DNA from: Agarophyton chilense
Lineage: Eukaryota; Rhodophyta; Florideophyceae; Gracilariales; Gracilariaceae
DNA length: 64,000 nt
Assembly (NCBI GenBank): GCA_030374765.1
Contig: JARGXX010000079.1
Location: 806,001-870,000, forward strand
Direction of reading: 5' to 3'
Numbering within the stretch: the stretch's first letter is position 1; each line of letters starts with the position of its first letter. Under the pieces are notes generated by a model. That model was not told the origin of the DNA, did no database searches, and saw only the letters and a program-made list of their open reading frames with translations. This document shows, piece by piece, positions 28,534 through 58,566 of the stretch. The position numbers and the translations under genes are program-made.

Positions 28534-28556
28534 CGTCAGTGTTCTCGGAATGCTAG
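28534..28556 (+). repeat. Terminal inverted repeat, left end of X
   Basis: CGTCAGTGTTCTCGGAATGC..., inverted at 33072-33094. Confidence 0.8.
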
Positions 28557-28749
28557 TTCAGTGGTCAAAAAAGGACGAATTGAAATGACCGAAAAACCCG
28601 TGAATTTATCCAAATTTGGAGGTGTTAATTTCCGAAAATATTTTCATTCGTTCATTAGTGCTAGTTTGTATGGGAAGGAAAACTAGCACATATCTGCAGT
28701 TTTTCTAGTTTTGATGGAGGTAAAACTAGCGTGAATCTTTCTGTCGCCG

Positions 28750-30880: not shown

Positions 30881-30999
30881 TCCGTGCTTTGCACGGTGTT
30901 GTCTGTGAAAACATGCATTTGTAGCGTTATATTCGTGTTGCACTGCACACATCTACCTTGACCGCACGAATGCACACGTGTCGCTTGCACGAATATTCC

Positions 31000-31290
31000 T
31001 CCGCCTGCGGGGAGTGCTACGGCATGCCATTGGCCAACTTTCCTACACGTGTCGACATCCTCCAATCACGTGCCGTGGCACTCTTGGTTCCGCCGCCCGC
31101 GCGAGTGCCACGGCACGCCATTGGCGAGCGCGAGTACACGTGTCTCCGTCCTTGAATCCTGCGACGTGGGACTCCTGTTCCGCCGCCCAGCCTAGTGCCA
31201 CGGCATGCTTTTGGTCATCTGTTACACGTGTGTCGCCGTTGACTAATCCCGTGCCGTGGCAATCTTCCTCCGCGGCCAAGTGGCCCATTC
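31000..31290. repeat. 91-bp tandem repeat with ACACGTGT boxes
   Basis: About three diverged copies (starts near 31013, 31105, 31196) each carry AGTGCYACGGCAYGC, TACACGTGT and a TTCCGCCGCC-like end. A partial copy precedes them near 30965. The palindromic CACGTG core recurs once per unit, outside any gene. Confidence 0.65.
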
Positions 31291-31337
31291 GTATCACACG
31301 CAGCGACACACATACACACAAACTGTGCTTTAGAACT

Positions 31338-32339
31338 CTGACGGCCGACAGAGGTGCGCTCTGACTTCATCGGGGGTGCCGATGAAGTCCCCGCGCACCT
31401 CTGTCGGCCGACAGAATGCACCGTGTACACCTGGGCGTTCTAAAAATTACAAAATTATATGTATTAGGTCGGCCGACAGAAATGTGCGGGGACTTCATCG
31501 GGACCCCCGATAAAGTCATAGCGCACCTCTTTCGGCCGTCAGAGTGCCCCGTGTACACCTGGGCGTTCCAAAATTATATGTATTATGTCGACCGACACAA
31601 GTGTGCTGCGACTTCATCGGTGGACCGATGAAGTGGCAGAGAACCCCTGTTGGCCGACAAATACGGCATAACATCACGCATGATGCGTTTTTGAGATGTT
31701 TTTCGACTGTCATTCGACCGAGGTGCGCTCCGACTTCATCGGGGGTCCCGATGAAGTCTCTGCGCACCTTTTACGGCCGATAGAATGCACCGTCTACATC
31801 TGGGCGTCCTAAAAATTACAATATTATACGTATTATGTCAGCCGACAGAGGTGCGTGGGGACTTCATCGGGACCCCCGATGCAGTCGGAGCGCACCTCTG
31901 TCGGCCGTCAGAGTGCACCTTGTACACCTGGGCGTTCTAAAATTATATGTGTTATGTCGACCGAAAAATACGCCATAAAATCACGCATGATGCGTTTCTG
32001 AGATATTTATCGACTGACGGCCAACAGAGGTGCGCTCCGACTTCATCGGGGGTCCCGATGAAGTCCCCGCGCACCTCTGTCGGCCGACATAATACATATA
32101 ATTTTGAAAATTTTAGGACGCCCAGGTGTACACGGTGCATTTTGTCAGCCGACAGAGGTGCGCGGGGACTTCATCGGGACCCCCGATGAAGTCGGAGCGC
32201 ACCTATGTCGGCCGACAGTCGACCAACATCTCAGAAACGCATCATGCGTGGTGTTATGCCGTATTTGTCGGCCGACAGGGGTTCCCTGCCACTTCATCGG
32301 TCCCCCGATGAAGTCGCAGCACACCCTTGTCGGCCAACA
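31338..32339. repeat. Array of eight 74-75 bp palindromes
   Basis: Units at about 31338-31414, 31468-31542, 31587-31659, 31713-31782, 31837-31911, 32013-32089, 32144-32218 and 32265-32339. Each has arms CTGTCGGCCGACAGAGGTGCG and GACTTCATCGG around a few central bases, followed by the inverted arms; each could fold into a long hairpin or cruciform. AT-rich spacers (AAATTATATGTATTATGTC) and small palindromes (ACGCATGATGCGT) alternate and are themselves inverted in the last two units. A ninth half-unit begins near 32378. ORFs across this area are by-products of the repeats. Confidence 0.85.
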
Positions 32340-32407
32340 ATTCACCAACATGTTTTTGGGACACCATTCGGGCCATTTGTTGGCCGCCAGGGGTGTGCTG
32401 CGACTCG

Positions 32408-32839
32408 ATGGGGCTGGAGATGGGGAAGCTGTGGAGGGCGAATGAGGAACTGAAGAGGCGTGTGAAGGTGTTGGAAGTGCACATGGAAGGGGTGGGGGAG
32501 ATTTGGGGTGCGCGAAAGGTGTTGAAGGAGGTGGGAGAGGAGAGGGGTAGAGCGAAAGGGTCGCCGATGACGCCAGGGAGACGCGGGGAGCCGGCTGGGA
32601 TGAAGAAGGGGAGAGAGGAATGGAAAGGGGGAGGAGTTGGAGAGAGTCGGCTGAAGAAGAGGAGGGTTGGTAAGGATATGGAGAAGAAGGGTGGGAATGT
32701 GTGTGTGGTGGGGCAGCCGGGTGTGAGGAACTTGAGCAGTGGGGAGGTGGACGAGGTTGAGAATGCGGTGGTGGACTTCTTCAACCTCAAATACCCTCCC
32801 GGTGGAACGCTCGAGCATAGTAAGCAAAAGGGCCAGTAA
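32408..32839 (+). CDS. Small coiled-coil/basic protein of the transposon
   Basis: From ATG 32408: MGLEMGKLWRANEELKRRVK, a helix likely to coil, then a basic Gly/Lys/Arg stretch and the ending VENAVVDFFNLKYPPGG. The last 100 residues are nearly identical in Y (43666-43358, minus), where the helix is missing. Function unknown; a conserved C-terminus in both copies implies the gene belongs to the element. Confidence 0.55.
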   Translation: MGLEMGKLWRANEELKRRVKVLEVHMEGVGEIWGARKVLKEVGEERGRAKGSPMTPGRRGEPAGMKKGREEWKGGGVGESRLKKRRVGKDMEKKGGNVCVVGQPGVRNLSSGEVDEVENAVVDFFNLKYPPGGTLEHSKQKGQ

Positions 32840-33071
32840 GGAGGTAGAAGGTACTGACGACTGCCTTGGTATGGATCTCCACCTAGAGCGGTCAAAAGTG
32901 ACCAGTAAACTGTAAATGCAGATTAAACTGCATTAAGTGGTCAAAACACTAAGATGTATGGAGTTCTTATTTCCGAAAAATTGTTTTTTGAGGTGCCGAA
33001 CTAGCGCAATCTGTAAAATTCTTAGATTTTTTGGCTTTTTATTTACAAAACTAGCTATCTAGCACACTTAT

Positions 33072-33094
33072 CTAGCATTCCGAGAACACAGACG
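33072..33094 (-). repeat. Terminal inverted repeat, right end of X
   Basis: Plus strand CTAGCATTCCGAGAACACAGACG; same as the left end of Y inverted. Confidence 0.8.
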
Positions 33095-33799: not shown

Positions 33800-36200
33800 T
33801 TGGTTTAATTCCCCAACGGACCAGAAGTACAGAAGAAACGCCCATTATAAATGCAGGAAACACACCCAACCGACCCGACCATAGAACTCTCACGGCAGGA
33901 ACAGCTGCCAGTGCAACGCCGAAGATGTCGCCTGAACCTCAGGGCCATATTGTTAGCGACCGCCGTAGCACGAGAAGCTAGCCGCAAGAAGTACTGACCC
34001 CATTCGATAACCCTAAAAGGATTCGCCAAGAACCCACGGTAGCGGCTCGTTTTCGAGAAAGCCTCACCAGGGCCACCCCTAGGCCAGGAACACCACAAGG
34101 CGAACCCCGTATGACCGAAGGAATTAGAGAGAATACGCCCGTCGGACTTGCCGACGTTCTCTGGCCCCGTCTCCATGAGCTCTGCCCAGTCCATGTGGAT
34201 TCGATTATGAACGTGCGACTCGCTACGGCGATTGCTGACCATAAAGATTACCTCATCACTCAAATCGTCCCTAAGATCATGGTCTGAGCTATTCTTAGAC
34301 TCCCTCATTCAGGCCGTTCAAGGAGCAGTCACCAGCTAGTCATGCAACACGGTTGCTAGGACCACTCCACAAGTCAACCATCCGGCTTTCATATGGAAAA
34401 CCCCTACTGAACCCCCAGGAGTGGCGGCGTTATCCACCCCTCGCCGGTAATTCCATCAGAAAAACCCCATGGTGGGACAATCTAGGGGAAGAAGAGAAGC
34501 TCCGCGTCTAGATGAGAGACAGGTTGCCCATTAGGAGAATCCAAGGGAGAGACAAGCGGGGGCAAAAAGAAACGCTCCGCGTCTAGAAGAGAGACTGCTT
34601 GCCCCACACGACGGATTATATGAGGTACAGCAACCTCAGGGCTCCATCGGATCTGATAGAGAGATCGACCTTTTAGGTTCCTATTCCACTGGAAAGAAAA
34701 GAAGTAACCGCAGAAGAAAGAAGAAAAGAAGTAGCAAAAGAAGAGACGATTCCGACACGAGTGATTCCAAATCGGCCTCGACCGAAACGACCGACTCGGA
34801 AGTAAACGAAGCTGTCGTTCGAGGCCTTAGACCATTAACAACCGCAGAAGAACTTTTCGTCAAGGTTTTAGACTACCGAAAGTACCGGCTGGCTGACAGG
34901 TCCGCCTAATATTCTGGTTCGGTGGCTCGCAGAATCGCCAAATGGGCCAAACGGATGCAACTAACCATTACGGACAAGTTCTCGGTTTCCGATCCCATTG
35001 CTGTCCTTAGGTTTCTCAGTTTGTTCGGTGCGGCCTGCGATCAGAACGGTGTCTACGAGGGGGCCGCTCTGTACCTTTTTTAAGTCTTCCTTACAGGACA
35101 GGTGCGTGACCGAGTGGTTTCGAAGATATCTGGCACAAATGACCTCGTGGATGCTCAAGAACCTGAGCTCCTCAGGTCATACCCTCTGGTTGTTCATTAC
35201 CTCTTGGAAACTTACGCCACGGATGAAGTTATAATGGATGCCCACCAGGAACTAATATCCTTTACACAGAGCTCCAACATGACCTAATCGGCTTTAGCAG
35301 ATGATCTATGGAAGAAGGCTTACCGATGTGGAAACTTGTTCTCTGAGTGACGGCTTAAACGTCACTTCATCACGGGATTTCTACTTGCCATTCGGACACA
35401 TGTGCGCAATTACCACACGGAAAACTCGCAATACTCCTTGCGAAGGCTCGTTACCTACGCCGAGGGTTATGGAAAAACCTACAGGACCTCCATGCGCATC
35501 GCTGATATAGCCAGAGGACACGCAACTCCATTGCGCAAACCCAACCAAGCCCATTTGGTTAGCTCCACAGAGTCGGACATGGATACATCAATTCATTACG
35601 CCGATTCGGGAGATATTTTCGCGGTAGATTTCAGTGCCCCTCCGTCCGGGTCCGCATCATATACCTATCAGGGAACTACAGCGACCACTGAACAACTCAC
35701 ACCCAAGTATTCTCCCTTTCCGCCCCGTAAGGACGTTTTTGTTCGATCACCAAGGGCTTGCTCCCTCTCCCTTTCAGTGACCCAACCTTGTGACTGTACG
35801 AGGTATCTTCCTGAGAACGCACGTGAAAATTTCCTATCTTTAAGGGAAGAGAATTACCGGGTGCGGAGATCCGAAGGAATGTATAACAGGGCACAGCAAA
35901 GAACCACAAGGACCCCTGGAAGCTCACGCCATGCCACGCCTCCGGATACTCCAATCATAGCCCCCCAGGTCCCTGACATTGTAAATTCTATGGACGATCC
36001 CGTAGAAGAACCCTATCCTCAGGGAGAACCGGAACCCCCATCGGAAAACTCCAGGAGGGACGACTCGAGGCAAATCCTGCCTCATTAAGCCCCTGCCTCA
36101 ACCAATTGGACGGTCATGAGCCAAACAGCGCCTCACCTCCCAATACGAACCACCCACAATGGACCACTTAGGATGAATCACTGTTGGAACACAGTAGCGA
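33800..36200 (+). pseudogene. Gag of element A, decayed
   Basis: Fragments parallel the Gag of element B: LTRATPRPGTPQGEPR, DVLWPRLHELCPVHVDSIMN, a Lys/Arg/Ser block near 34690-34800, WAKRMQLTITDKF, and QYSLRRLVTYAEGYGKTYR. At 35752 the zinc-knuckle-like CSLSLSVTQPCDC has lost one Cys that B keeps. Numerous stops. Confidence 0.75.
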
Positions 36201-36272
36201 CCCCGTCTATGTCCTCAGGAAAGAGAACTTTAAAGTTCGAGTAACCATACGGCTTCGTCCAACAACTATCGA

Positions 36273-37049
36273 GTGACCACAGCTGTATTGGACACAGGCG
36301 CTGGTCCCAACTTGGTCCATCCTAAGCTGCTCCCACTGGGTGGGCAAGATTTCGTTCAGGGAAGGAAGACCCCAAGGATTACCGATGCGTCTCGTAGAAC
36401 AATGTACATTAAAGAGATAGTACCACTTTACCTCCAGGCAGGACAATTCAAAGTCGGCACTTGGTTTCTTGTATGTTGTAACTTGGTCGCCGAGGCAATC
36501 CAAGGGACCTCCTTTACCGACCGATACATTAAGCCCATTTATCCAGCCCTTAGGAAAGTCGCATTCTACCGCGCACCTTCCATCTCCATAGCTTGTTCAA
36601 TCCCAGGGCCAGAAGTTAACCGCAAACGAGCGGTTGTCTCCAAAAACACGAAGTCCAATAAGGTTCGCCCGTCAAAGGCCATAACGATACCGCCGATGAC
36701 CCAAATCGCTGTATCGGTCCATTCCCAGTCTTCAGGTCTCGTAACGATTCAGAACCACCCGAAAATGGTTCTGAAGCACCTTACCTTGATTGTCAATGGA
36801 GTAATAGACATCCACTCCAGCAGGTCTATCTTGGTCACTATCAGCAACTTCCGAGATAAACCCGTGAGGTTACCTGAAAGTACAGTGATTGGTATGACTC
36901 TACCCGCGCCCGTGGCCATTATGGAGGCCGAAATGGATAACCTTGCGGTACCAACTCCCGACGAGGACGTCGACTCCGGGGAGGGGACGGTCGCCATCGG
37001 CGAAGAATTCAAATCCTATACGCCTCAGATACTTGATCTCCTCAGGTGA
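36273..37049 (+). pseudogene. Aspartic protease region of element A
   Basis: AVLDTGAGPNLVH is a standard retropepsin active site (DTGA). ILVTISNFRDKPVRLPE and the acidic linker DEDVDSGEGTVAIGEE lead into RT. A TGA at 37047-37049 separates it from RT in the same frame. Confidence 0.85.
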
Positions 37050-37058
37050 TACCAGGCC

Positions 37059-43102: not shown

Positions 43103-43125
43103 CGTCTGTGTTCTTGGAATGCTAG
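43103..43125 (+). repeat. Terminal inverted repeat, left end of Y
   Basis: Inverted at 55334-55356; the family motif is shared with X. Confidence 0.8.
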
Positions 43126-43357
43126 ATAAGTGTGCTAGATAGCTAGTTTTGTAAATAAAAAGCCAAAAAATCTAAGATTTTTGCAGATTGCGCTAGTTCG
43201 GCCCCTCAAAAAAAAAAATTTTGGAAATAAGAACTCCATGCATCTTAGTGTTTTGACCACTTAATGCAGTTTAATCTGCATTTGCAGTTTACTGGTCACT
43301 TTTGACCGCTCTAGGTGGAGATCCATACCAAGGCAGTCGTCAGTACCTTCTACCTCC

Positions 43358-43666
43358 TTACTGGCCCTTTGGCTTACTAGGCTCCAGCGTTCCGCCGGGA
43401 GGGTATTTGAGGTTGAAGAAGTCCACCACCGCATTCTCAACCTCGTCCACCTCCCCACTGCTCAAGTTCCTCACACCCGGCTGCCCCACCACACACGCAT
43501 TCCCACCCTTCTTCTCCACATCTTTACCAACCCTCCTCTTCTTCAGCCGACTCTCTCCAACTCCTCCCCTTTTCCATTCTTCTCTCCCCTTCTTCATCCC
43601 AGCCGGCTCCCCGCGTCTCCCTGGCGTCACCGGCGACCCTTTCGCTTTCCCCCTCTCCTCTCTCAC
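43358..43666 (-). pseudogene. Truncated copy of the coiled-coil/basic ORF
   Basis: Residues match the C-terminal 100 of the X ORF (32408-32839) with few changes and end VENAVVDFFNLKYPPGG. The homology stops near 43670, where the sequence changes to unrelated DNA, so the N-terminal helix has been lost in Y. Confidence 0.6.
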
Positions 43667-43780
43667 CTCCTTCAGATACTCTGAAACAACTGTTCAAAGA
43701 GCGGTATCATATCGTTACCTATGTGCAGCGTACAAGGAAGACTAGCAAACAGGAACGCCTTTACTAACATGTTCAGTTAG

Positions 43781-44608
43781 CAAACACTCTTCACATCGAC
43801 CTTAACGTTCACAATCACACTAACTACACTCTTCGGAGTTATAGACCCAGCTCTGCAATATACGCTTCTATTCAGTTTCAACTATCTCCTTCGGTGCATT
43901 CTCATAACGCTATTGAGGTGTCCTATCCAAAGCCTGCTACACATTCTCATAATCGAAGGAGGCGTACAATGTATAAACGCGTTATACGGGTCTCTACAAA
44001 CTACGCTGTTCAATCCAAACCAGCGATATACCTGGAAGAAACGAGCCTTTCTGGAATTCGGGGCTCTACTCCTTACTCTACTCATCCCCCTCAACGCCAT
44101 ACTTTTCCTCGTTCACCGCTTCATTCCAGTCAGCGGTACCCTTTCATCAGACGTGAAGACAAATTGTATCGCCTTCTCCACAGGAGGGGCCGCAGTTGGC
44201 GCTTTGGCATATCTTCTCCAGCTTGTTTCTATATCCTTCTTTCCAGAGTCCTATCTTAACACAAAGTTCACAATGACCCCGGAACCACGGAGAACCTCTT
44301 TTATGAACCTCGTGCTTGGCGCCCTCTCCCACTCTTTTCAACAGGCTTTATTCATATCCAGTCCGGCTGTAACCTTCCGACTACTCGGTATGAGGCTGTC
44401 GGCATGCACTTTCGCTGCACTCTCTTCAACCGCCTTCTCCACCTCTGGCATTGAGGGCCCTGGTGTTTCTATACTGCTTGGTAACACAGTTGATTTCGTA
44501 ATCTTGATATCTTCGATAGTTGTCATTCACTATGAGAAAGTGAAAGCAAGTGCTGCTCTCACGCGTTTCAATCCAGTTGTTCAGGAGTTTCTACTGAAAG
44601 ACGACTGA
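43781..44608 (+). CDS. Multi-pass membrane protein of unknown function
   Basis: Open from 43781 (just after TAG) to 44608. There is no ATG at the beginning; the first part (LFGVIDPALQYTLLFSFNYLL) is already hydrophobic, so an upstream exon may supply the start (TTAGTTAGCA-like acceptor nearby). Five or more hydrophobic segments: IEGGVQCINALYGSLQT region, FGALLLTLLIPLNAILFLV, AAVGALAYLLQLVSISFF, LVLGALSHSFQQALFI and VDFVILISSIVVIHY. Family not recognised. Located between the coiled-coil ORF and the dioxygenase gene, it may be cargo of Y, or a host gene caught inside it. The frame has no internal stop, unlike its neighbours. Confidence 0.5.
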   Translation, partial: QTLFTSTLTFTITLTTLFGVIDPALQYTLLFSFNYLLRCILITLLRCPIQSLLHILIIEGGVQCINALYGSLQTTLFNPNQRYTWKKRAFLEFGALLLTLLIPLNAILFLVHRFIPVSGTLSSDVKTNCIAFSTGGAAVGALAYLLQLVSISFFPESYLNTKFTMTPEPRRTSFMNLVLGALSHSFQQALFISSPAVTFRLLGMRLSACTFAALSSTAFSTSGIEGPGVSILLGNTVDFVILISSIVVIHYEKVKASAALTRFNPVVQEFLLKDD

Positions 44609-44668
44609 TCACTATTACAAGAAAAGGGGACTACTCCACATATTACCTCAAATTGTACTCTTTATTGT

Positions 44669-47600
44669 TCAATAGGTAACAGATACTATGTAGTCGTCGT
44701 CGTCATCCATTATCATACCGCCGTCTTCATAGTCTCCATCTGTGTTAGCCGAGTTGAGACCCATCCCAGGTTCATCATCCTCTTCTTCATACTCCTCTTC
44801 CCCACTTTCAACAACTTCCATTTTATAATCTTCATCCAACTCCTCGTCCTCATCTACCTGGACGTCTTCATCATCACCCTTGTTGGAATCATCCTCTTCG
44901 AACTTAGGCCGAAATGCTGGTGGCCTATGCACTGCGTCCGGTAGCTTGTACCCATCCGGTACCAAGTACATGTGATACCTCATGCAAACTTCCTTAACCA
45001 ATGCATCTTCGAATCCAGCTCCAGCATGAAACACATCTCCTCTTCCAATAAAAATGGAGTACGGCGGAATCCTGAACTTTCTCACTACCATCGTCCGAGA
45101 CAGCCGCTTTAAGATCCTGTCGTCGGGCACGTACATGTTATGTGACCTCTCACAAACCCAAAGCATAAACGAACTCGCTCCCGACTCCATCATGAAGAAC
45201 CCTGGAACCTCTCCGACGTTCCTCTCGGCATCGGTCAGTCCTCGAAAGTCCGTATGTCACACCTGCCTTGGACAGCCCTCCGCCGTACACAGCACTCGCC
45301 CCCATGTTTCAGGGGCATACATCCTCTTCTTCCCCGACCAGTTGTTGCACAACCGAAGAGCGGCCGCAATCTGTCCAAACCTCGCATCCAACAATGCCCT
45401 TTTCCTCACCATTAAAACGTTGTTCTCGTCCCCCTCCACAGAATCCACAATCTCCACCTTCGTCGTAATGTACCGCCCAACTCCTTTCATTCTATCTCCA
45501 GCGTCTCTCCCCTCACCAGCGTTGATTATAGGGTCCCATTTCTTTCTATTTACTTCAATCTTCAAGTCCGGCTGGTTCAAGAAATCCGTCTGGAAGAACT
45601 CTAGCAAAGTCCCAGTCTCATCCCATCGATGTTTACCCCCCTCTTCTTCGCCTCATCCGCCATCCCCTCGTCTGTGGCAAACTCTTCCAGCACACAAAAT
45701 CCTTTCTCCATCAGCTCACTTCTCTTAGTCGCGAAGTACTCGCCGGCCAAGTCATCCCTCTCCATTGCTACCATCCATATCGCCTGCTCTTCATTCACAG
45801 GGTGGTCCTTCGTCGGTAGAATCATCCCAAGAACCGGTTCTTTCGTGGAACCCAGTTTTTTGTGCCTGTTATGAGCAGCACGCGAATAAACCGCATGGTG
45901 CACACTTTTCAAGTCTTCTACCCTCAAGCACTCCGCCCTGTGCTTGTTCCGTAGGTAAATCATCTGCATCCAGAGGTGCTGATGCTTCACTCCATTTTCT
46001 CCCGCCGTCCACTCGCTCGGAAGTGCATTCACCAAGTACACCCACGACATACCCGACCCCCCTGCATACGGTCCCGCCCTCTCCAGCCCCTTCGGAACAC
46101 CCTCCGGATTATTGTCTTCGAAGCCACGCATTTGCACACCTTCCTTCTCTTCGTCCCCTACAAATGCACCCTGCCCCCCGTCATTATCCAGTTAATTCTC
46201 ACTCGATGAGAAAACATTGAGTACATGTTCCTTCAAGAAGCGCTTCAGCTCTTTCCTGCTCATCTTCTTGAACACATCCACCACGTCAGCCGGTATTTGA
46301 GCCGCAGATGTGCCCACCGTCTTTCTCCTCTTCCTCTTCCGCTTTAAAGGCTGTTCATACTCGCTTTCATCATCACTAATGACCACAGCCTTTCTCTTCC
46401 CCTTTCTCTGTCTAGGTTCCATCACCCTCTCACCGGCAGAATCCAGCCCGCGCTCAGTACCTTTTCTAGTTCGTGTGATGCGTCTGGGAACCACGGTTTC
46501 CTGGTGTGGTACAGACTCCCCAGCACTAGACGAAGGAACATTCATAGAAGGTGGCACCTCCACCACATCCTTCTCCGCACTTGGGGACGCCAGATTCACT
46601 TTCAGATCGCCTTCAATCCGCCTTTGTGCGATTTTCATCCTCTTCGACACCAACCCCGGCCACGTCCGCTTCGGACCACTGAGCTCCATCTTCGCCGTTT
46701 GCATGCAAAGGTACTCCCTTAAACACACCTCGTTCTTTCCCATCACAATTGTGCTGTCTAGAACCTTCCCCGCCGTCAGACCCTTCTCCTTTCCCGCCTT
46801 TTCGCATAGTTGGAACATTCCTATGGCGCATTTGAAGAACTGCTTTCGCTTCTCCTGGAAACGTCTCATATTCCCCGTAGAACCCATCCTCACCCTCACA
46901 TGTAGCTGCAAACAACGGATTGCGAAACGGAATATTTCGTCCTCGAGTCCTAACCACAAGTCACTCGACACATGCGCAAGCGTTAGCACTGGACCCTCCT
47001 TGCATACGTTCTCAAAGAACTCCAGGAGACCTTCGCTCCTGACGAATTTCAACCCAAGAGTCGCATAGCAATTCAAGTGGCGCAAGCTGTAGATTCCTAT
47101 AGCTTCGCTCGTCTTCAGCGCCCCAGCTATTCGTGTCGGAGTAAGGTCAGCCAACTTGGTTCTCTTATCGTCAATCAAGTTGCAAATGAAGGACACTGTC
47201 GAATGAACCTTGTCGGCGAGACTCATCTTCAACACATTTGAACTCATTTCATTGAGTACATTACCAAGACCGAGCACTTCGTTCAGCGATAAAGGCTTAC
47301 GGTCCTTGCGTCTCCAAAGAACGACATCAAGAGACCGCACAATTTCCAACCACTTTCTCCCTTCAGAGGGATTATTCTTCAGATCTCGCAGAACCAAGAC
47401 GCGGTGATGACCGTCAATGAGTATGACAGGCACCACTACCCTCCCATTGTGAACAATTTCACTGAAATCTAATTCCATTCCCCCGACGATGGCAACAGCA
47501 ATCGACCCTGCCGACGCAAGCCAGCCAAACTTTTTGCACTTTGCCATCGTCGCCACCTTGTGTTCCGCATTCACACTTCTGACAGTCTTCTCGGGGATTT

Positions 47601-47826
47601 GTATGTCATCTATGTCCACAATCAAGCGGCACTGGTCATAGTGTGAAACAGAGATCTTCTTTTCCACGAGAGTCCTATCCCCTTCCTGCGAAGGGGCGGC
47701 ATCGCCGTCATCGAACAACTCCAACTCGGGACCGGTGTGCGAATCCCTGCGTACATTCACCGCTGACCCCACCTCCACAACATCTTCATCAGAATCATCC
47801 ACTATCGTCACCCTCTTTTTCGGCAT
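44669..47826 (-). pseudogene. Transposon-borne ParB-like / 2OG-Fe(II) dioxygenase-like protein
   Basis: ATG 47826 opens about 1050 codons. The first part (to TAA 46192-46194) has an acidic N-terminus, then VVPVILIDGHHRVLVLRDL, resembling the G-x-H-R nucleotide box of ParB/sulfiredoxin folds, a helical region, and basic NLS-like runs. The same frame continues after the TAA through MSWVYLVNALPSEW and KHQHLWMQMIYLRNKHRAE. A G-run near 45630 shifts the frame; then come a TGA (45257-45259) and immediately HTDF, giving the HxD metal pair. FIGRGDVFHAGAGFED (His near 45027, about 76 residues later) and RYHMYLVPDG supply the distal His and the Arg expected to bind 2-oxoglutarate. An acidic tail ends the protein. 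By family, such enzymes oxidise nucleic-acid bases or proteins. Fold assignments are mine from motifs; the joined reading is an inference. Confidence 0.55.
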
Positions 47827-48126
47827 AATATATATAATTTTGTAATTTTTGGAACGCTCAGGTGTACACGGTGCACTCTGTCGGCCGACAGAAGTGCGTG
47901 GGGACTTCATCGGGACCTCCGATGAAGTCAAAGCGCTCCTCTGACGGCCGACAGAATGCAACCAGGATAGCTGCGAAGTCGTTCCGCAACAACCGTTCTT
48001 CCGTGCGCGCTCCTCAACCGTACTCACAATCTTTCCGTACCCACCCGCACCAACCCGCACCCGCTGCTCTCTTTCACTCAGGCTCTCGTGACGACCGCCC
48101 GTGAGGTTGTTGGAACACGTACATAA
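47827..48126. promoter_or_regulatory. Divergent promoter region with one palindrome unit
   Basis: 300 bp separate the starts of the dioxygenase gene (leftward) and the arginine-rich gene (rightward). The palindrome at about 47876-47955 is one unit of the array in X, with the same AT-rich spacer abutting the dioxygenase ATG. The minus-strand frame stays open through it to 48060, but translated palindrome is unlikely to be coding. Confidence 0.6.
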
Positions 48127-51100
48127 ATGGCTCCAGAACCCACGAGAACTTCTTCATCGCCTGCGGCAGACACCTTCCAAATGGGTAAACTGTTTGGTAC
48201 GGGGGATGAAGCTATCAGGGCGTGTCTGGATTTGCGTGATCGTTACGCATCAACGAGGCGGGAGGAAGATGAGCCGCGAAAAGTGGGGCACACTGCATTC
48301 ATCGATTTCGCAATTGCCAATCGCCACATCCTACCGGAGACCGCGAAGTTTTTTTATACTCTCCTAGGTCCCGACCACACTAATTACACAGAAGATGAGC
48401 TCCGGGTTGTAGGAATGAGGGGCTCGAACTGTCAGAATTGTTCCTAAGCGAGGTTGCTGGATATAAGGGATGGGGACCCAGATAGGCGCGTGAGGGACTT
48501 TTGGAACGCGTACGAGGCGGTGGAGTTCAAGGGCATCCCGAAGAATGTCACTTTGACAGAGTTCTTCAAAGGTCTGGATACAACCCGAAAGAAGGCGAGC
48601 AAAAGCCGGGCTCCATTCGCGACCGACTTCCCGACAATGTTCCAGAGGTTGCTGTTCCTCATTTGTATTCAGTCGGTCTCTATGGAGAAGAGAAGAGTCT
48701 CCCGTAAGCGAAGAAAGCGGGACAGAACCTACGATACGCCATTTTCGAAGGTGGCGATTTATGACAAACCAGTAGCTCAGCGTGTGGGCTTTGGTGTGCA
48801 GCTCGTCAATAACGCGTGGGACAGCTTTGCCCAGTATTTGGGATTCCCTGTCGTGGAATTCATGGTTTTGCCCTTTATCCATCTACGGTATTCTGATATG
48901 CAGAGGGGATGCGGAGGGCGGGAGGTACAAGGGGCGTAGGCTCCAGGGCGCGAGTGGAGAGCAGGGAGGCGTGCGCCTGAGAGGTAGATCAAGGCAAGAT
49001 GGTGGGGAAGGAGAGGGGAGTGGGGGCAAAGGAAAGGCTGTTCGCGCAAAGGAGACGGTGACGGAGGAGAGTGCGGAGCAAATCACGTCGCGTACGCAGC
49101 AAATCTCGTCACCTACGGGAGAGATGGTGCGGAGCGGCGATGGAAAACGGGATGGCGTGCGAAGCAACCGCACGCCTGTACCTAGAAGTGGATTGCGGGG
49201 GAGGGCGAGCAGAGCTCCAGGGAGGACAAGGAGAGGGGATGCATCCGAGCGGACTCTTAGTGCTGTACACACGTATTCAGCTGATGTGGAGCCGGTAAAT
49301 CCATGCTCTGCACCTGAAGGAGGTGAAGAGATTCCGAATGAGAGCATGAAGGGGCGTAAGGGGGGAGAGAGAATGATCGGAGAACGTGGACCCCGCCTCA
49401 GAGGCGTTGAAGAAGCAGGGGCATCGTTTACGGGTATGAGGGAAGAGGACGGTGATGATGAGATACAGAAAGGGAGAATAGAGAGTAGCCGTGGTGGGGA
49501 AGGTAGAATAGGTGGACCCAGTAGTGGTCTAATCGCGGGCGCAAGAGTCGTTCGAGAGAGAACAGAAGGAGAGAGTGTTGGAGTTACCGCGGGGGAACAG
49601 GTGGAAAGATGGGAGGGGGCGAACTTGGATTACGTGGAAGAAAGGAGAGAGCGTGCAAGGGAAAGAATGGGGAGTGTTCGAGTTACAGGAAGAAGAGCGA
49701 TAGACGAAAGGGAAAGCAGAGAAGTGCATGTGAGTGAGGGGGGGAGAAGGGGGTTTGCTGGAGGGAGAACACGTGGTTCAGGGGAGGAAGGCGATGGAAG
49801 AGCAGCAGTTCTTTCTCATCAGGGAGAAGATGTCGAGCGTTTGCCACCGAGAAGAGGGGTGGGTTTGGGAGTTGAAGGGTTTGAGGTGAACGCAAGGCGA
49901 AGGACGCCGGAAGGTATGCGAGTAAGGAGAAACATTGTATTCACAAGGAATAATGATAATGGGGAGAATGCGAATTTAAATGTCGTGGAGAACGCCGTCC
50001 GTATAGTGGAAGATGAAGCAAATGATGATGACATAGGTTTTTTGCCGCGGTCGATGCTAATTGAGAAGATGAATGTGTTGAAGGGACAAATGGGACGTAT
50101 GAAGGAAGACAGCTACAGTGTGATGGTGAGTTTGAAAATGACCCAAACGGAGCTGGATCAGGCGAGGGAGGAAATGAAGCAGCAGTATGTGCTGATTGAG
50201 AGTTTGAGGGAGGCGTTGAAAGGTAGAATCGCTGGGGAAGGGAGGGGGGAGGGAGGCGTGACGCGGCGACGAAAGTATGACATTGGAGTGCAGGAATGCT
50301 TTTATGGATTTGCACGTCGTGTGTATGATAGGATTCTTCATTGTGCAAAACTGGAGGCATCGGAACTTTGCTTGGACACCGAGAATGTGGGTCGAAGCTG
50401 GAAGAATAGAAGTGAGGCGGTTGGGGAGAGTAGGGAGGAAAGTATGTTTGTGGTGGGAGAGAAGGAAATGGTTCCGAGATGTCCAATTGAGGTTGCATAT
50501 GAGATGAGACCGTATACGCCGTCGATAGAGGGCGAGAGCCATTTGTTGTTGAAGCACGTGGTAGAGACTGAGTTAATGGGAGAGAAATGGGAGTCGATAA
50601 GGGAAGCGGGGAGGAGAGAGGAGTGCGTGGAAAGTGTAAGTGCGGATAGGTGCTTGAGACAGAGGATGAAGCAGACATTGAGCGATGTGGTTAGGGTGCG
50701 GAAGCGAGCAGCGCGTAATAAGCTGTTTTCCATGCTTGGAAATGATTTGATCGCGAAACGAGCTAAGGTGACTGAAGGGACGGAGCTTTGGGCGGAGTTG
50801 AAGAAGCAGATTGAGGAGGCGCAGGAGAAGTTGATGGGGTCGGGGGAGGATGGGAGATGTAAGCTGTGTGCGTAGAGAACGAGTGCGATTGAAGATATTA
50901 CTTATTCTGGATCGAAGGTGTCTGAGAACTTGGAGGACTTTGGTGAGGCAGATATGTATTTTCAAAATCAGGTGTCGTTGAAAGTGTTGGAGGAGTTTAT
51001 GGGCTACACGGTAGAGAGTCACAGAAATGGAGAAAGGCAGTATGTGGATGGGACGGTGATGCATCTTGCGCGACTTGATGCATGGATTGGATGTGTGGTG

Positions 51101-51472
51101 ACCACGATGGATAGAGACGTTGGGCGGGGAGGCCAAAGGCAACTTTTGTTCTCGACTCTGTTTGGGAGGTTTCTGCTACTGGCTGTTGAGGACATATTGA
51201 GGGTTGCCTGGAAAATGGTGAAGGATGAGTATGCTGAGGAGTTTGAGAATGATGGATTCTGTGGAGGGAATCGTAGAGATGTGAGTGGGAATAAGGAGAG
51301 AATCGCGACGGTTGGGCTATGGATACCGTCGAGAGAGAAAAACTATCTGGCGATAAGGGAGAAGTTTTTCATGGAGAATCTCACGAGAAGACTTTGGAGC
51401 GGTGTTAGATTGCTATATAGCGTCATGTGGACCAGAAGAACCACGGTTAAAGCGCTTAGCGTTGGGGAGTAG
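48127..51472 (+). pseudogene. Large arginine-rich, coiled-coil transposon protein
   Basis: ATG 48127 begins about 1115 codons with a TAA at 48445-48447, a frameshift in a G-run near 48905 and a TAG at 50873-50875; frames on both sides fit. Order: globular N-domain (GDEAIRACLDLRDRYASTRR; AQRVGFGVQLVNNAWDSF), a long low-complexity Gly/Arg/Glu region, an acidic segment, a coiled coil (MNVLKGQMGRMKEDSYSVMV onward), and a C-terminal globular part (NLEDFGEADMYFQNQVSLKV; LLFSTLFGRFLLLAVEDIL). No domain is recognised. A diverged piece of the N-domain occurs at 61905-62344, so the family exists elsewhere. Its divergent pairing with the dioxygenase gene suggests they work together, for example in DNA binding. 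Confidence 0.5.
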
Positions 51473-51578
51473 GCAAGGAGTGGGAGAGTGATAAGGTACG
51501 GGGGGATAAGGGGGTAAGGAGGTGGAGCAAGATGGGGGTCGGCTGTGGAAGAAAAGCAGCGGTGACTTTTTTATTGGA

Positions 51579-54500
51579 TCATGTGCCTTGGGAGGTATTA
51601 TTATGGGTACCACCCAGTGGTGGTGTTGTGCCACCAGTGGTGGTTTTGGAGAAGTAGGGCTTGGCAGTTGGGTCTCGGTAGAATCTGTTGAGGTAAAATC
51701 GATGGAAGCGCCAGTGCAATCGAGGGATGAAGGGGGGTGCGGGGTAGTTTTGGCGAAGTACATGAACGGGGCCGAGAATGGAAGAGGATGGTACGAGGCC
51801 GAACCAGGGGGAGACGTTCTCGGAGTTGGAAGTGTTTGAGATAGGAAGGGGGTGGGCGGTGTGGTTTTGTTCGTCGTCTGTTGCCCATCGGAGGCAGATG
51901 CAATTGAGAGAGACATCGACTTGATCCTGGGGTGGAACGAGTTCGAGGAACTGAACGAAGGCGAACTCGTTATGAGTGGAAGGGGAAAAAGGGGTGGTGA
52001 AGCGAAGAAGAGAGTTGAGCTTGCAGACCCAGGCGGTGGGAGTGGGGTTGGAGAAGCTGGAACCGGCAACGAGGATGTGGGAGAACTTTGGGATTTTAGA
52101 GGGAGCGAAGGAGGGAGCAGCGAAGATACGTTGAATGAGTGGGAGAGGGGGATCTTTGACGGCGAGCTCGTTTCGATCGGCGATGTAGTCGTCTAGGGTT
52201 GGGGTGAAGCCGCCGACGACGTATGCGGAATTGACGAATGTGAGACGGGTTTGGCGGAGAGTGGGGCAGTCCCGGTTGAGAGCTAGTGTTTCGAGTGTGA
52301 GTGTGACGAAGGAGGGGAGTGCGAGGGTTCCAATCTGTGAGATGATGGCGATAGTGTCTGGGGAGAAGAGGTCCTGAAGGGAAGAGATTGTTGAGTGGGG
52401 GTTTGCTCGAAGGAATTTGTGAGCGGTGATGAGATCGGAAAAGGAGGTGTGCTTGCCATCACGGACGAAACCTGGTTTGCGGGCTTGGAAGGGAGGAGGA
52501 GGGGCATGGGAGGATGAGGTGACGGAAGGATCAGCGGAGAGAGAAATCCATTTGTTGACGGCATCGGAGCGTTCGATGGCACGGATGGTTTCGTTGTGCG
52601 CGGTGGGTCTGCGCTCGGAGGTTCGGGAGTAATGTGCTTTGAAGAGGGTATGGGCTTGTTCGAAGATGCCTGCATCGTTGAAGTGGAGACCCCCAAAGCG
52701 TCGAATGTCGTCTACGATGTGATCGAGGAGGTGGAATTTGAGGGTGCCAAGGTTGGAGGTATTGTATGGACCGAGAACATCGACAGCTCTGTGCTTGAAG
52801 GAATGGATTTGGGAGGCGAGTTTGGCAAGACGAAAAGTGGTCCATTCGGGGACGGAGTTGTAGCACATGGAGGTGAGGAGGAGGTCTGTGTACTTGGAGA
52901 AGACGGTTGTGATGGGAGCGGAATTGGCTTCGTCACAGCAGCGGTCGAAGAAGGCGCCGATGAAGGGGAAGACCATGTCAAGGGCGCGGTAGTCTTTTGC
53001 TTCTAGCATGTCGCGGACGCCGTCAGTTGTGAAGAAGCCGTTGAGGGACTGCCGCTTTAGGAAGTAGAGAAGTCGATGTGGAGGCCGGTAGCTGGGGAAT
53101 GATTTTCGATGGCGGTGAGGATGAAGTTGGAGTGCTTGAGGATGGAGGTGCGGACGGAGTGGAAGGAACGGCGGGAGTTTGTGGAGCTGATGGTGGTGAA
53201 GAGGTGTTCTGATCTGAGACGTTCGATGGCGGCGAGCTTGATGAGTTTGGAAACGCCGAGGTGGAAGTTGTGGAGGGGTTCGAAGGGGAAGATGTTGTAT
53301 GGGGTGAGGAGGGGGGTGATGTTGAAAAGGGGGTAAGACTCGAAGAGGGAGGGGTATTTTGAGAGGGAGAGGGAGTGGAGTGCTTGGAGAGCTTGTTCCT
53401 TGAAGTTGCGCGAGACTCTTGGCTTGCGGGCGAGGAGAGCTGCTTCGGAGTCCTTGAGGAGGGAGAAGTGTTTGTTGCGGGCTGCAAGGGTGAGGGGAAG
53501 AGATCGAGGGGGATGGGCGTGAGAGTGTTGGTGGAGTTGTGAGCGAGGGACAGAGCAACTGTGGCAGGGGTGCTGGGGGCGGGTGCCGTGGGAGATGGCG
53601 AGAATATCCTTTGCCTCGGGAATGTCTGCGCAGTAGCTGGCGATGATGGTGTGGCATTGACGAAGAACGCCGTCTGCGTCGCGGAAGGGGAAACCGGAGA
53701 GGGCGGAAGAGAAGAGAGGTTGAAGGAGGGAGGAGATGGTCTGCTGTATGAGTTCCATTTTTGTTTAGCGGGAGATGGAGGAGGAATGAGTGATAATATC
53801 TGCATCTGGAGAAGGAGTGATTGGGGTGAAGGAGGTGGGAAGATAGCCGAGGAGTGTGAGATTGTCGGAGATGCATTTGCGGCGAAAGGAGTCGGAGAAG
53901 TTGAGAAGGGTGATGTGGAGGGGGTAGGAGGTGATGGAAGAAGATTTGAGAGAGGTAGAGGACTTGTCGGAGTGGATTTGGACGAGGCCGATGAAGAAGT
54001 CGATACCGGTGGAATGAGGGAGATGCCAGATGATGTTATCTTTTGTGGACTGCATGATGGCGGTCTTGAGTGCGGGGACGACTTTTGAGCCGAGGGTGGC
54101 TGCCATGGGGTGTGCGAAGGCGGGGGAGCCGGAGGCGGATGTTTGGGAGATGGGGTGGAAAAAGGTGTTCTTGAAGTGTGCGAGGGCGAGCTGTTGTTTG
54201 AGGACATGGATTGCGTCTTTCTGGAAGAGGGTTGCGGAGAAGCGTTTGTGGGGATCGAAGATGGTGGAGGGGGCGAAACCAATGGACCTGATTCTCTGGT
54301 GGAAGAGGTCTGCCTGGAGCTCGAGGCATTGCTTTGTGGAGGAGACTGAGTTCTGGAATGTTGATTCGGAGAAGTGGGGATCATTAAGGAGAGTGATGAG
54401 TTCGTCAGCCTTTCGTTGTCCAAGCTTGGAGGCGATGGAGGAGATGTAGAGGACCATTTTCTCCAGGTGGTGGTTGTCGAGGGGGGGAGTGGAAGGAGGG

Positions 54501-54841
54501 AGGGGGGAGAGAGCGAGAGAGGAGGGGGAACCGAGTGGGGCAGTGGCGACGTGGATGGCGTCCTGGGTGTGGAGGGAGAGAGAGAGCTGGTCTTGGAGGT
54601 AGGAGTCATGGTGTGCGAGAGGGACGTTGTCGGAAGGGCGATATGAGGGAGGAGGATGAGGGGGGAGTTGTGAGGTGGACTTGTGGCGTTTTGTGCGGGG
54701 GGGGAAGTTGGGTTCATTTCCGCCAGGGGAGAGGAAGCGCTTGTTGGCGGAGAGGCGATGAGGGCACCTTCTCTGGTGCCGCTGGAGGGCGGGGATTTTT
54801 CGGGCGAAGAAGGATCAACCGTTGAAGCAGCAGGAAGGCAT
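51579..54841 (-). pseudogene. Transposase, Plavaka/EnSpm-like (tentative)
   Basis: ATG 54841 opens about 1087 codons. Residues 4-31 form a zinc-finger-like C-C...H...C pattern (MPSCC, then LQRHQRRC), interrupted by TGA at codon 9. Later comes MVLYISSIASKLGQRKADEL, the block IHSDKSSTSLKSSSITSYPL, LLGYLPTSF, ASYCADIPEAKDILAISHGT, HPCHSCSVP and NIFPFEPLHNFHLGVSKL. This run, with S-D and a CxxC after a conserved D-x-P-E, is like the catalytic region of Plavaka/KDZ/CACTA transposases. The C-terminal third matches X up to DDYIADRN. Further lesions: a TAA at 53762-53764 and, near 53055, a TAA plus one missing base relative to X. Confidence 0.65.
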
Positions 54842-55333
54842 GGTGGGTGGAGGAGAGGTGGTGGGAAAGAAGTTGGTAGGGGGCGTAGACCGAGAGAGAG
54901 TATGGCGCACACAGGGCACGTGACAGGGGAGGGCGGTGGAGAATAATGTAGAATGCAAGGCACGTGAGGTCTGCCAGGTCGGGCTGCGATTCTATTGCGA
55001 TTGATATGGATGGTACTAAATGTTCAATTTCTATTTTGAGGTCCATTTTGGGACCGTTTGTTTGTACTAATCTGTCAATCTAGAGCGCACAAAGATTGAA
55101 TCTGCTCCTGCACCACTTCTCTACTTTTACCTTTAAACTGCGGCGACAGAAAGATTCACGCTAGTTTTACCTCCATCAAAACTGGAAAAACTGCAGATAT
55201 GTGCTAGTTTTCCTTCCCATACAAACTAGCACTAATGAACGAATGAAAATATTTTCGGAAATTAACACCTCCAAATTTGTATAAATTCACGGGTTTTTCG
55301 GTCATTTCAATTCGTCCTTTTTTGACCACTGAA
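54842..55333. other. Subterminal region of Y
   Basis: Transposase upstream region, then repeated CTAGTTTT/AAAACTAGC motifs to the right terminal repeat. A purine-poor, open but out-of-frame ORF here is a shadow. Confidence 0.5.
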
Positions 55334-55356
55334 CTAGCATTCTGAGAACACTGACG
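55334..55356 (-). repeat. Terminal inverted repeat, right end of Y
   Basis: Plus strand CTAGCATTCTGAGAACACTGACG; matches the left end of X inverted. Confidence 0.8.
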
Positions 55357-55361
55357 TGGTA

Positions 55362-56305
55362 TTACCTGAGGAGATTAAGTATCTGGGGCCTATAGGATTT
55401 GAATTCTTCGCCGATGGCGACCGTCCCCTCCCCGGAGTCGACGTCCTCGTCGGTAGTTGGCACCGCAAGGATATCCATTTCGGCCTCCATAATGGCCACG
55501 GGCGCGGGTATAGTGATACCAATCACTGTACCTTCAGGTAACCGCACGGGTTTATCTCGGAAGTTTCTGATGGTGACCAAGATAGACCTGCTGGGGTGGA
55601 TGTCTATTACTCCATTGGCAATCAAGGTAAGGTGGTTCAGAACCATTTTCGGGTGGTTCTGAATCGTTACGAGACCTGAGGACTAGAAACGGACCGATAC
55701 AGCGATTTGGGTCATCGGGGAATCGTTATGGCCTTTGAAAGGCGAACCTTATTGGACTTCGTGTTTTCGGAGACAACCGATTGTTTGCGGTTAGCTTCTG
55801 GCCCTAAAGCGGAACCAGTTATGGAGACGGAACGTGCGCGGTAGAACGCGACTTTCCTGAGGCCTGGATAAATGGCCTTAATGGATCGATCGATAAAGGA
55901 GGTCCCTAGGATTGCCTCAGCGCCCGAGTTAGGACAAACAAGCAACCATGTGCGAACTCTGAATTGTCCTACCTGTAGGTAAAGTGGTACTATCCCTTTA
56001 ATGTCGATTGGTCTACGTGACGCATCGGTACTTCTTGCGGGTTTTGTTGTCTGAACGAAATCTTGCGAACCCAGTGCGTGTAGTTTAGGATGTACCAAGT
56101 TCGGACCAGCGCTTGTGTCCAATACAGCTGTGATCACTCGAGAGTTGTTGGAACGAATTTCTAAGTTTACTCGAACTTTATAGTTCTCTTTCCTGAGGAT
56201 ACAGACCGGGTCGTCACTGTCTCCCAATTGGGGGTCATCCTGAGTGGTCCATTGTGGGTGGTTCGTATTGGGAGGTAAGGAGCTCTTTGGCTCATGACCT
56301 CCCAA
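55362..56305 (-). pseudogene. Protease region of element B
   Basis: AVLDTSAGPNLVH: the flap-site DTG of A has become DTS, which should weaken or kill the enzyme. Two open pieces (56305-55712 and 55646-55362) with a stop between; the second ends at the Y junction. Confidence 0.8.
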
Positions 56306-56355
56306 TTGGTTGAGGCAGGGGCTTAAAGAGGGAGGATTTGCCTCGCGTCGTCCCT

Positions 56356-58566
56356 CTAGGAGTTTTCTGATGGGGTTTTCGCTTCTCCCTGAGGATAGGG
56401 TTTTTCCACGGGGTCTTCTGTAGGATCTACAATGGCGTAAATCTGTGGCGCTTTGATCGGAGTATCCGGAGGCGTGGCATACCGTGTCTTTGCAGGGGTC
56501 CCTGTGGTTCGTTGCTCTGCCTTGTTATACATTCCTTCGGATCTCCGCACTCGGTAATGCTCTTCCCACAGGGCTAGGAGGTTTTTGCGTGCGTCCTCTG
56601 GCAGATACTTTGTACAGTCACAAGGTTGGGTCACTGAAAGGCAGAGGAAGCAAGCCTTTGGGGAGGGAACAAAAACCTCCTTACGGGGCGGAAATGGAGA
56701 ATACTTGGGTGTGGGTGGTCCAGTGGTCGCCGTAGCTCCCCAGGAGGTATATAATGGGGGCCCGGATGGAGGAGCACTGAAATTGACCAAGAAAATATCT
56801 CCCGAATCAGCGTAATAGAGTGATGCATCCATGTCCGACTCCGTGGAGCTAACCAAATAGGCTTGGTCGGGTTTACGCATTGGAAATGCGTTTCCTCTGG
56901 TTATGTCAGCGTTGCGCCTGGAGGTCCTGTAGGTTTTGCCATAACTCTCGGCGTAGGTAACGAGCCTTCGGAAGGAGTATTGCGTGTTGTCCGTATGGTA
57001 TTTGCGCACATGTGTCCGAATGGCAGGGAGCAATCCCGTGATGAAGTGACGTTAAAGCCGTCCTTCGGAGAACGCGTTTCCACAGCTTTAAGCCGCCTTC
57101 TGTAGGTCGTCTGCGAAAGCCGATTCGGTCATATTGGAGCTCTGTCCAAAGGAGATGAGTTCTTGGTAGGCATCCATTATGACGTCGTCCGTGGCGTAGG
57201 TTTCCAATAGGTAATGAACAACCGGGGGGTATGACCTGAGGAGCTCACGGTCTTGAGCATCCACGAGGTCAGTTGTACCACATATCTTCGAAACAACTTG
57301 GTCACGCGCCTGTCCTGTAAGGAAGAATTGGAAAAGGTACAGAGCGGCGCCCTCGTGGACACCGTTCTGATCGCAGGCCGTACGGAACAAAATGAGAAAC
57401 CTAAGGACAGCAATGTGATTGGAACCCGAGAACTTGTCCGTAATGGTTAGTTGCATCCGTTTGGCCCATTTCGTGATTCTGGGAGCCACCGAACCAAAAT
57501 ACTTCGCGGACCTGTCGGGCAGCCGGTAATTCTGGTAGTCTAGAACCTAAAGGAAAAATTAGTTGGTTGTTTTCAGTGGTCTGAGGCGTCGAACGGCAGC
57601 CTCATTTACTTCCGAGTCGGTCGTTTCGTTCGAGGCCGATTCGTAATCACTCGTGCCCGAATGGTCTCTTCTTTTGCTACTTCTTTTCTTCTTTTCCCTG
57701 CAGATGCTTCTTTTCTTTCCATCGGAATAGGGATCTAATGGATCGATCTCTTCATCAGATCCGATGGAGCCCTAAGGTCGCTGTACCTCATATAATCTGG
57801 CGGTTATGGAAACCTGTCTCTCATCTAGACGCGAAGCTTGTCTTCTGCTCCTCGCTTTTTTCACCCTTGGATTTTCCGGATGGGCAACCTGTCTCTCACC
57901 TAGACGCAAAGCTTCTCTTCTGCTCCTAGATTGTCCCACCATGGGGTTTTCCTGATGGTATTCCCGGCGAGCGGCGGATAATGCCGCCAATCTTGGGGGT
58001 TCGGTAGGGGGTTGCCATATGGAAGCCGGATGGTTGACTTGTGGAGTGGTCCTAGTGACCGTGTTGCCTGACTGGCTGGTGACTGCTCCTTGAACGGCCT
58101 GAATGAAGAAGTCTAAGAATAGCTCAGACTCCATGACCTTGGGGACGATTCGCGTAACGAGGGAGTCCGTATGGTCAGCGATCGCCGTGGCTAGTCGCAC
58201 GTTTACAATGGAATCCACATGGGCTGAGCAGAGCTCACGGAGACGGGGCCAGAGAAGGTCGGCAAGCCTTGCAAGCATGTTTTCTCTAATTAATTCGGTC
58301 TTACGGGGTTATCCGTGTGGTGTTCCTAGCCCAGAGGTGGCCCTGGTGAGGCGTTCTCGTAAACGCGCTACCACCGTGGGATCTTGCCGAATGCTTTCAG
58401 GGTTCTCCAGTGGGGTCAGTACTTCTTGCGGCTGGCTCCTCGTGGTCTTGTGGTCGCTAGCGGTATCAACCTGAGGGTCAGGCGACATCGCCGGCGTTGT
58501 AGTCGCACATCGTTCTGCCATAGCAGTCCTATGGTCTGGTCGGGTGGGTGTGTTTCCTGCATCCAT
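56356..58566 (-). pseudogene. Gag of element B
   Basis: Open pieces in order: 58566-58309, 58278-57772 (DLLWPRLRELCSAHVDSIVN and an Arg/Ser-rich tail), 57489-57088 (capsid-like: FFLTGQARDQVVSKICGTTD and SYPPVVHYLLETYATDD) and 57033-56356 (QYSFRRLVTYAESYGKTYR; zinc-knuckle-like CFLCLSVTQPCDC at about 56632). Better kept than the Gag of A. Confidence 0.8.

Follow-up and report, generated by a model that had tools for sequence, protein, structure and literature searches.

A red algal Plavaka transposon carries a divergent ParB-oxygenase and methyltransferase-SET gene pair, a candidate writer and editor of a DNA mark

Can a transposon carry the means both to place and to edit a DNA mark on its own copies? 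The question is raised by positions 43103–55356 of a 64,000-nucleotide stretch of the Agarophyton chilense genome (contig JARGXX010000079.1; the whole stretch is called the window here), where an initial annotation, made from the letters alone, had described a 12-kb DNA transposon with a gene that joins a ParB-like region to a 2-oxoglutarate (2OG)/Fe(II) dioxygenase-type region and that could write or erase a base mark on the element itself. We searched the genome (79.8 Mb, 135 contigs, the window being part of contig C79) and find that the window element is a dead, decayed copy, with deletions, of a Plavaka cut-and-paste transposon (EnSpm-type) of 18.8 kb, on which the ParB-oxygenase gene is paired with a divergent gene predicted to encode an amino DNA methyltransferase that also bears a SET domain. 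Judging from the predicted domains, we give an even chance to the two proteins forming a transposon-owned writer and editor system (methyltransferase-SET plus ParB-dioxygenase) in a host in whose genome our search found no 5-methylcytosine (5mC) methyltransferase. The earlier interpretation is thereby partly supported, having been partly right and too narrow.

Results

The full-length element and its divergent gene pair

The window element is a real transposon whose inverted ends lie exactly at 43103 and 55356, as first called. Its end pattern, with at most one mismatch, occurs at 154 + 146 = 300 places in the genome, against 0 + 0 for the reversed control. The places given individually are the first 100, and among these listed matches paired ends delimit elements of up to 18–19 kb (for example C2:40670–59136 and C12:164906–183458). 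Ten end pairs, all with exact ends, were sampled from the top of the match list; nine are flanked by a 2-bp target duplication and one by none. The assigned length of 12 kb applies to the window copy only: the full-length copy on contig C10 (918487–937296, with a TA target duplication) spans 18.8 kb, and the window copy differs from it by three large deletions, which correspond to C10:919057–921365, 925518–927072 and 928098–930843.

The C10 copy begins with open frames that have no above-cut-off Pfam match, followed by the minus-strand ParB-oxygenase gene (L059, 1228 aa from its ATG), the divergent methyltransferase-SET gene (L061:821–3952, 1043 aa), a coiled-coil-like, arginine-rich gene in two overlapping frames and, again on the minus strand, the Plavaka transposase (L098; PF18759, E 9.5e-23). 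This arrangement recurs across the genome. A search with the methyltransferase-SET gene scored 44 of 232 candidates, at 96–100% identity, and 12 of the 44 rows hold a stop-free frame of 1036–1043 aa. The divergent ParB-oxygenase gene lies within 6 kb of the methyltransferase in 37 of these 44 copies, in 38 the other strand carries Plavaka no more than 9 kb away, and in 33 both neighbours are present. These counts are lower bounds, as they cover scored candidates only; they took in every methyltransferase row (44), every Plavaka row (123) and, of the 80 ParB rows, the 57 that remained once the second family described below and the second fragments of split copies had been dropped.

The pair is not confined to one lineage of the element. 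Genome-wide, PF01555 gives 116 rows, which comprise the first family, a second family and fragments. Methyltransferase-SET frames of the second family are mostly 1130–1141 aa long, and one member (L105, 1065 aa from its ATG) is 36% identical to the first family, SET part included; the corresponding second ParB-oxygenase family (L060, 1297 aa) is 42% identical to the first. Compared by eye, the second-family genes are also divergent, for example on C33, C89, C92, C95, C96 and C106. The divergent methyltransferase-SET/ParB-oxygenase pair is thus conserved on the transposon across two diverged families. Outside this genome, the public proteins P0002 (methyltransferase-SET) and P0022 (ParB-oxygenase) carry the same source listing (four contigs, the longest of 20528 bases), and because the listings are identical the two probably lie on one metagenome contig.

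Second-family copies are near-identical on many contigs (C33, C95, C96, C103, C10, C25, C116, C98, C16, C117 and others), and of the 26 methyltransferase rows assigned to this family on the basis of match range and frame length, at least 17 lie no more than 20 kb from the end of a contig. C33:1–1500 has no telomere motif. The position may reflect either a subtelomere or an assembly break, since long identical repeats also break assemblies.

The window copy retains the following parts of the element.

43103–43125, plus strand: left terminal inverted repeat, CGTCT-type end (CGTCTGTGTTCTTGGAATGCTAG)
44669–47826, minus strand: remnant of the ParB-like/2OG-dioxygenase-type gene, with a broken frame and without its 5' end
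44669–46137, minus strand: oxygenase-type part of that remnant (HTD...H...R)
46192–47826, minus strand: ParB-like part of that remnant (DGHHR)
48127–48903, plus strand: remnant of the methyltransferase-SET gene, first ~260 residues; methyltransferase and SET parts deleted here
48903–51472, plus strand: remnant of the coiled-coil-like, arginine-rich gene, 5' end deleted
51579–54814, minus strand: Plavaka transposase gene with a broken frame; PF18759 matches at 53060–53764 and 53768–54814
55334–55356, minus strand: right terminal inverted repeat, CGTCA-type end, near reverse complement of CGTCTGTGTTCTTGGAATGCTAG

The transposase-like gene first noted here is indeed Plavaka: two of its frames match PF18759, at E 1.5e-12 and 1.5e-6. 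What had been taken for one large, divergent arginine-rich gene (48127–51472) is instead two remnants that a deletion has brought together, the start of the methyltransferase-SET gene and the arginine-rich gene; the former was overlooked because the window copy has lost most of it. The ParB-oxygenase gene has lost its 5' end here and contains in-frame stops and a frameshift. This copy is probably rearranged, as it has no 2-bp target duplication (TT against TG) and its left and right flanks match different sequences within the window.

The methyltransferase-SET protein

The protein is predicted to combine a beta-class N6/N4 amino DNA methyltransferase with a SET (lysine methyltransferase) domain. 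The methyltransferase part matches PF01555 (N6_N4_Mtase) well above the cut-off (E 3.4e-18), and among 21 public relatives with precomputed domains all have PF01555 and seven also have the SET family PF00856. A profile built from 14 members picks up DpnA (E 2.9e-15), CcrM, MboIIA and RsrI, all adenine methyltransferases, as well as the SET enzymes KMT5A/SETD8 (E 8e-5), MLL1 and EZH2, the SET matches being short stretches that do not pass individually. In beta-class amino DNA methyltransferases a (D/S)PP(Y/F) motif precedes motif I, which binds S-adenosylmethionine (AdoMet). Here, D-P-P at residues 511–513 is invariant in 16 of 16 sequences, with a conserved D-x-F-x-G-T stretch of AdoMet type behind it at 704–713. 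The DPPY motif and the closest solved relatives suggest N6-adenine as the target, N4-cytosine being less likely; the N4 enzyme PvuII is a weaker match (E 0.0034). Against viral contigs, the alignment finds at least 34 loci, with matches that fall within query residues 436–773, in the methyltransferase part.

For the SET part, scans of individual relatives place P0002 (28.5 bits) and P0003 (26.7 bits) above the cut-off and P0001 (20.5 bits) below it. An NHS-type motif is a feature of SET lysine methyltransferases; by eye it is absent at the expected place, where IND-type residues stand instead. SET activity is therefore uncertain.

The ParB-oxygenase protein

A genome search with the ParB-oxygenase gene scored 80 places, second family and split copies included, and the 30 best of these, the window copy among them, were aligned. 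No in-frame stop occurs in 12 of the 30 (three of the 12 have small gaps and a possible frame shift), and stops occur in the other 18; nine rows of the first family hold an uninterrupted frame of at least 1217 aa. The ParB-like part and the H-x-D...H...R part are one gene, as had been proposed, and a division into two separate, unrelated genes at 46192–47826 and 44669–46137 is ruled out by the unbroken frames across other copies.

The sequence patterns that had been picked out in the two halves are conserved in relatives. A public search with the oxygenase region returned P0022 (51% identical), P0023 (47%), P0024 (34%) and P0025 (29%), of which P0024, from Gracilaria domingensis, is the only named relative of the ParB-oxygenase protein found. 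The D, G, H and R of the DGxHR motif in the ParB-like part are invariant in four of four sequences; in the oxygenase part, H-x-D is present in six of six rows, and the distal H and R in all five rows that reach that far. In L059 the four residues of this pattern are H1041, D1043, H1117 and R1133. The ParB-like part also aligns with that of the public protein P0020 (hhalign probability 90.8, E 1.2e-6), where it is joined to an N6/N4 DNA methyltransferase in an architecture that resembles a protein of the Ectocarpus transposon Sola1-1. Kinship of the oxygenase with TET/JBP enzymes, which had also been suggested, is unproven: the motif is present but profile similarity is absent, the Tet_JBP profile giving 0 matches in the whole genome in a run without a positive control.

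Other searches returned little. In PHROGs the ParB-oxygenase protein has weak matches only (best E 0.02, function not assigned), phmmer with the whole protein against the PDB gives four matches at E 1.2 or worse, and a first homology search with the whole protein found no homologue among 8000 candidates scored. No ParB family profile of Pfam matches in six members. Neither the oxygenase part nor the ParB part matches viral contigs, and the oxygenase part has no match in the genome_contigs collection.

Short relatives of the oxygenase part occur elsewhere in the genome. At C21:640980–668389 there are six copies about 5 kb apart, with short frames of 170–417 aa, and on C68, C103, C7 and C77 there are six rows with a 302-aa open frame and one or two TAG codons inside each match, which are perhaps an old, expanded pseudogene family.

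The host and the candidate base

The surmise that this is a Plavaka-like element in an alga is confirmed, and the host is a red alga, since contig C39 holds 14 of the 15 rows given by the phycobilisome family PF00502, and the window contains a RimM gene. No match to the C5 (5mC) methyltransferase family PF00145 was found in this genome (0 matches; the control had matches in 10 of its 14 genomes, which are prokaryotes where named), in a search that was six-frame and intron-blind on an assembly whose completeness is not established. Among the 30 gene copies, C>T changes occur at 0.0121 at CpG against 0.0086 elsewhere (1.4-fold), and G>A at 0.0149 against 0.0105. Together, the missing PF00145 match and the only 1.4-fold CpG excess of C>T speak against 5mC as the mark, and we did not adopt it as the natural substrate. 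The TET enzyme CcTET also acts on N6-methyladenine (6mA), according to PMC12730594, and by analogy an oxygenase that edits 6mA is plausible.

A proposed function and its alternatives

In our model, the methyltransferase would write 6mA (less likely N4-methylcytosine, 4mC) onto element DNA, and the SET domain would set a histone mark nearby, on the same copies. The ParB-like protein would recognise element DNA, by binding or by spreading, and its dioxygenase would remove or oxidise the mark so that some copies stay expressible; the outcome could be either anti-silencing or self-limitation. The kit is probably directed at 6mA and histone methylation. Discovery of the methyltransferase-SET partner lends weight to the idea of an element that acts on a DNA mark, as writer or editor, and makes 6mA or 4mC a likelier base than 5mC, and the domain shuffling seen in P0020 ties the oxygenase and the methyltransferase to one system. 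A stronger version, which we consider less likely than not, is that this is a complete transposon-owned chromatin kit in which a ParB-guided dioxygenase edits the very mark that its partner writes, and in which 6mA or 4mC belongs to the transposon and not to the host, in an alga without 5mC. If true, a single selfish element transports the writer, editor and histone arm of adenine (or N4-cytosine) methylation, and this would help to explain how DNA marks other than 5mC entered eukaryotes and how transposons gain control over their own silencing.

Several observations weigh against a ParB-guided dioxygenase paired with a histone-modifying writer. The SET match of the methyltransferase-SET protein barely passes: at E 8.2e-5, it scores 23.4 bits where the cut-off of PF00856 is 22.4. 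The dioxygenase assignment follows from the H-x-D...H...R pattern and its conservation: no oxygenase family of Pfam matches at E ≤ 1 in six members, one of which has two unrelated sub-cut-off matches, or at E ≤ 5 in P0022, P0024 and P0025, and a profile search of the PDB with the parts of the protein returns no sequence up to E 10. An AlphaFold2 model from five alignment rows reached a pLDDT of 32.5, too poor to judge whether the fold is the double-stranded beta-helix of TET/JBP dioxygenases. A stretch of the oxygenase half has a sub-cut-off match to Peptidase_C93 (E 0.0067 for the window piece, 0.18 for the full protein), an identity that we did not adopt from a match at that level. As for the ParB-like part, the ParBc_2 match of P0020 is itself below the cut-off (E 0.18), which makes the ParB assignment weak, and relatives of the oxygenase part exist without it (P0024, of 699 aa, and the frames on C21), so the fusion is not universal and its halves are separable. 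Finally, pN/pS among the 30 ParB-oxygenase copies is 0.72, which points to mostly neutral decay after insertion and does not decide between anti-silencing and self-limitation.

These points leave room for other readings. The oxygenase could be of a histone or other protein demethylase type that opposes the SET domain, so that the two form a writer/eraser pair on lysine and the DNA methyltransferase acts alone. The SET domain of the partner gene and the lack of a TET/JBP profile match fit this proposal, and yet in P0020 the relative of the ParB-like part comes joined to a DNA methyltransferase, which points to DNA; we consider the proposal unlikely. That the element represses itself, marking its own copies with 6mA or 4mC and histone methylation to limit copy number with the oxygenase only tuning the outcome, also strikes us as improbable. 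It would make sense of a SET domain fused to the writer and has a likeness in the silencing of transposons by 4mC in bdelloids, but strong self-silencing is not obvious in a genome with so many near-identical copies whose frames are intact, among them the 12 full-length methyltransferase frames.

We regard as very unlikely a TET-like anti-silencing role, in which the oxygenase removes 5mC placed by the host. Fungal Plavaka elements carry TET/JBP genes for which this function is proposed in PMC12730594, whereas here the six-frame search of the genome gave no PF00145 match and the CpG excess among the 30 copies is slight. Least of all do we expect the pair to be captured cargo without function for the element. 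The pN/pS value and the stops in most of the aligned copies are what such cargo would show, but the pair is kept in divergent order, with long open frames, in two families that are only 36–42% identical, and it probably occurs also on the metagenome contig of P0002 and P0022.

Other features of the element and the window

Two further features in the window belong to the element or are another copy of it.

43781–44608, plus strand: 275-aa open frame (stop to stop) with hydrophobic stretches; stretch also present in the C10 copy
28534–33094, plus strand: second, shorter copy of the same transposon, 4.6 kb; Plavaka match at 29050–29796 (plus strand), TG target duplication

The frame at 43781–44608 has no Pfam match at E ≤ 0.01, and a piece of its C10 counterpart has sub-cut-off matches only. 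For the arginine-rich gene, too, Pfam gives only sub-cut-off matches, to coiled-coil families. The left-hand open frames of C10 at 919705–921456 (L100, L099) are lost from the window copy and have no above-cut-off Pfam match, and one of them contains a short internal duplication; a ketopantoate-reductase-like reading of the left-hand open frame was dropped, as its two pieces gave no Pfam match.

A repeat of about 75–100 bases, containing CTGTCGGCCGACAGA, occurs in direct and inverted copies at 47859–47973 and 31339–32405 of the window, with more copies at C10:926350–927154. It sits between the divergent genes and could be a candidate binding site for the ParB-like protein. Two retrotransposon fragments, Gypsy-like by eye, lie at 35813–37054 and 55357–56598 of the window and are 87% identical across 1244 bases; the second abuts the right end of the DNA transposon.

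Discussion

The initial annotation held the ParB-like fusion on such an element to be undescribed. That may hold for the ParB-oxygenase fusion on Plavaka: searches of the openly licensed PubMed Central literature turned up neither it nor the methyltransferase-SET fusion on Plavaka. It does not hold for the surroundings, since TET/JBP genes on fungal Plavaka (PMC12730594) and brown, green and red algal transposons with ParB-methyltransferase proteins (PMC12477816) are described in published articles.

The first of these articles (Kojima 2025, PMC12730594) reports TET/JBP genes on fungal KDZ and on fungal Plavaka of type B, which has CATCA..TGATG ends and 2–3-bp duplications, type A having TGT..ACA; in that article 'ParB' occurs 0 times and 'alga' once. 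The algal element shares with these fungal ones a Plavaka transposase, a 2-bp duplication, similar ends and a gene of H-x-D...H...R oxygenase type. Its termini (CGTC[T/A]..[T/A]GACG) are near those of type B without being identical, being CGTCA..TGACG and not CATCA..TGATG, and it differs further in its red algal host, its ParB-like fusion, its methyltransferase-SET partner and the lack of detectable TET/JBP profile similarity. The same article describes SET genes on the HarbingerS and MuDR transposons of Phytophthora, which are likewise DNA transposons with a SET gene, and its passage on them mentions no fusion to a DNA methyltransferase.

In bdelloids, N4CMT (PMC8885841) is a bacterial-type amino DNA methyltransferase in a eukaryote with ties to histone methyltransferases and transposons, as the enzyme here would be. 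It belongs to the host, contains a chromodomain and marks transposons for silencing, whereas the algal gene is transposon-borne and SET-fused, and its DPPY motif and closest solved relatives point to 6mA.

A close parallel is the Ectocarpus Sola1-1 protein, a ParB-like region with an N4/N6 DNA methyltransferase that has green and red algal counterparts (PMC12477816, citing Petroll et al. 2025). By that account, giant transposons of algae that bear ParB and amino-methyltransferase domains are already a known kind, and the two cases have in common a giant algal DNA transposon, both domains and a proposed self-modification. In Ectocarpus the transposon is Sola-1; here it is Plavaka, ParB joins an oxygenase-type domain, the methyltransferase joins SET, and the two genes are divergent. 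It is this combination of ParB-oxygenase and methyltransferase-SET on a Plavaka transposon that appears to be new relative to published elements.

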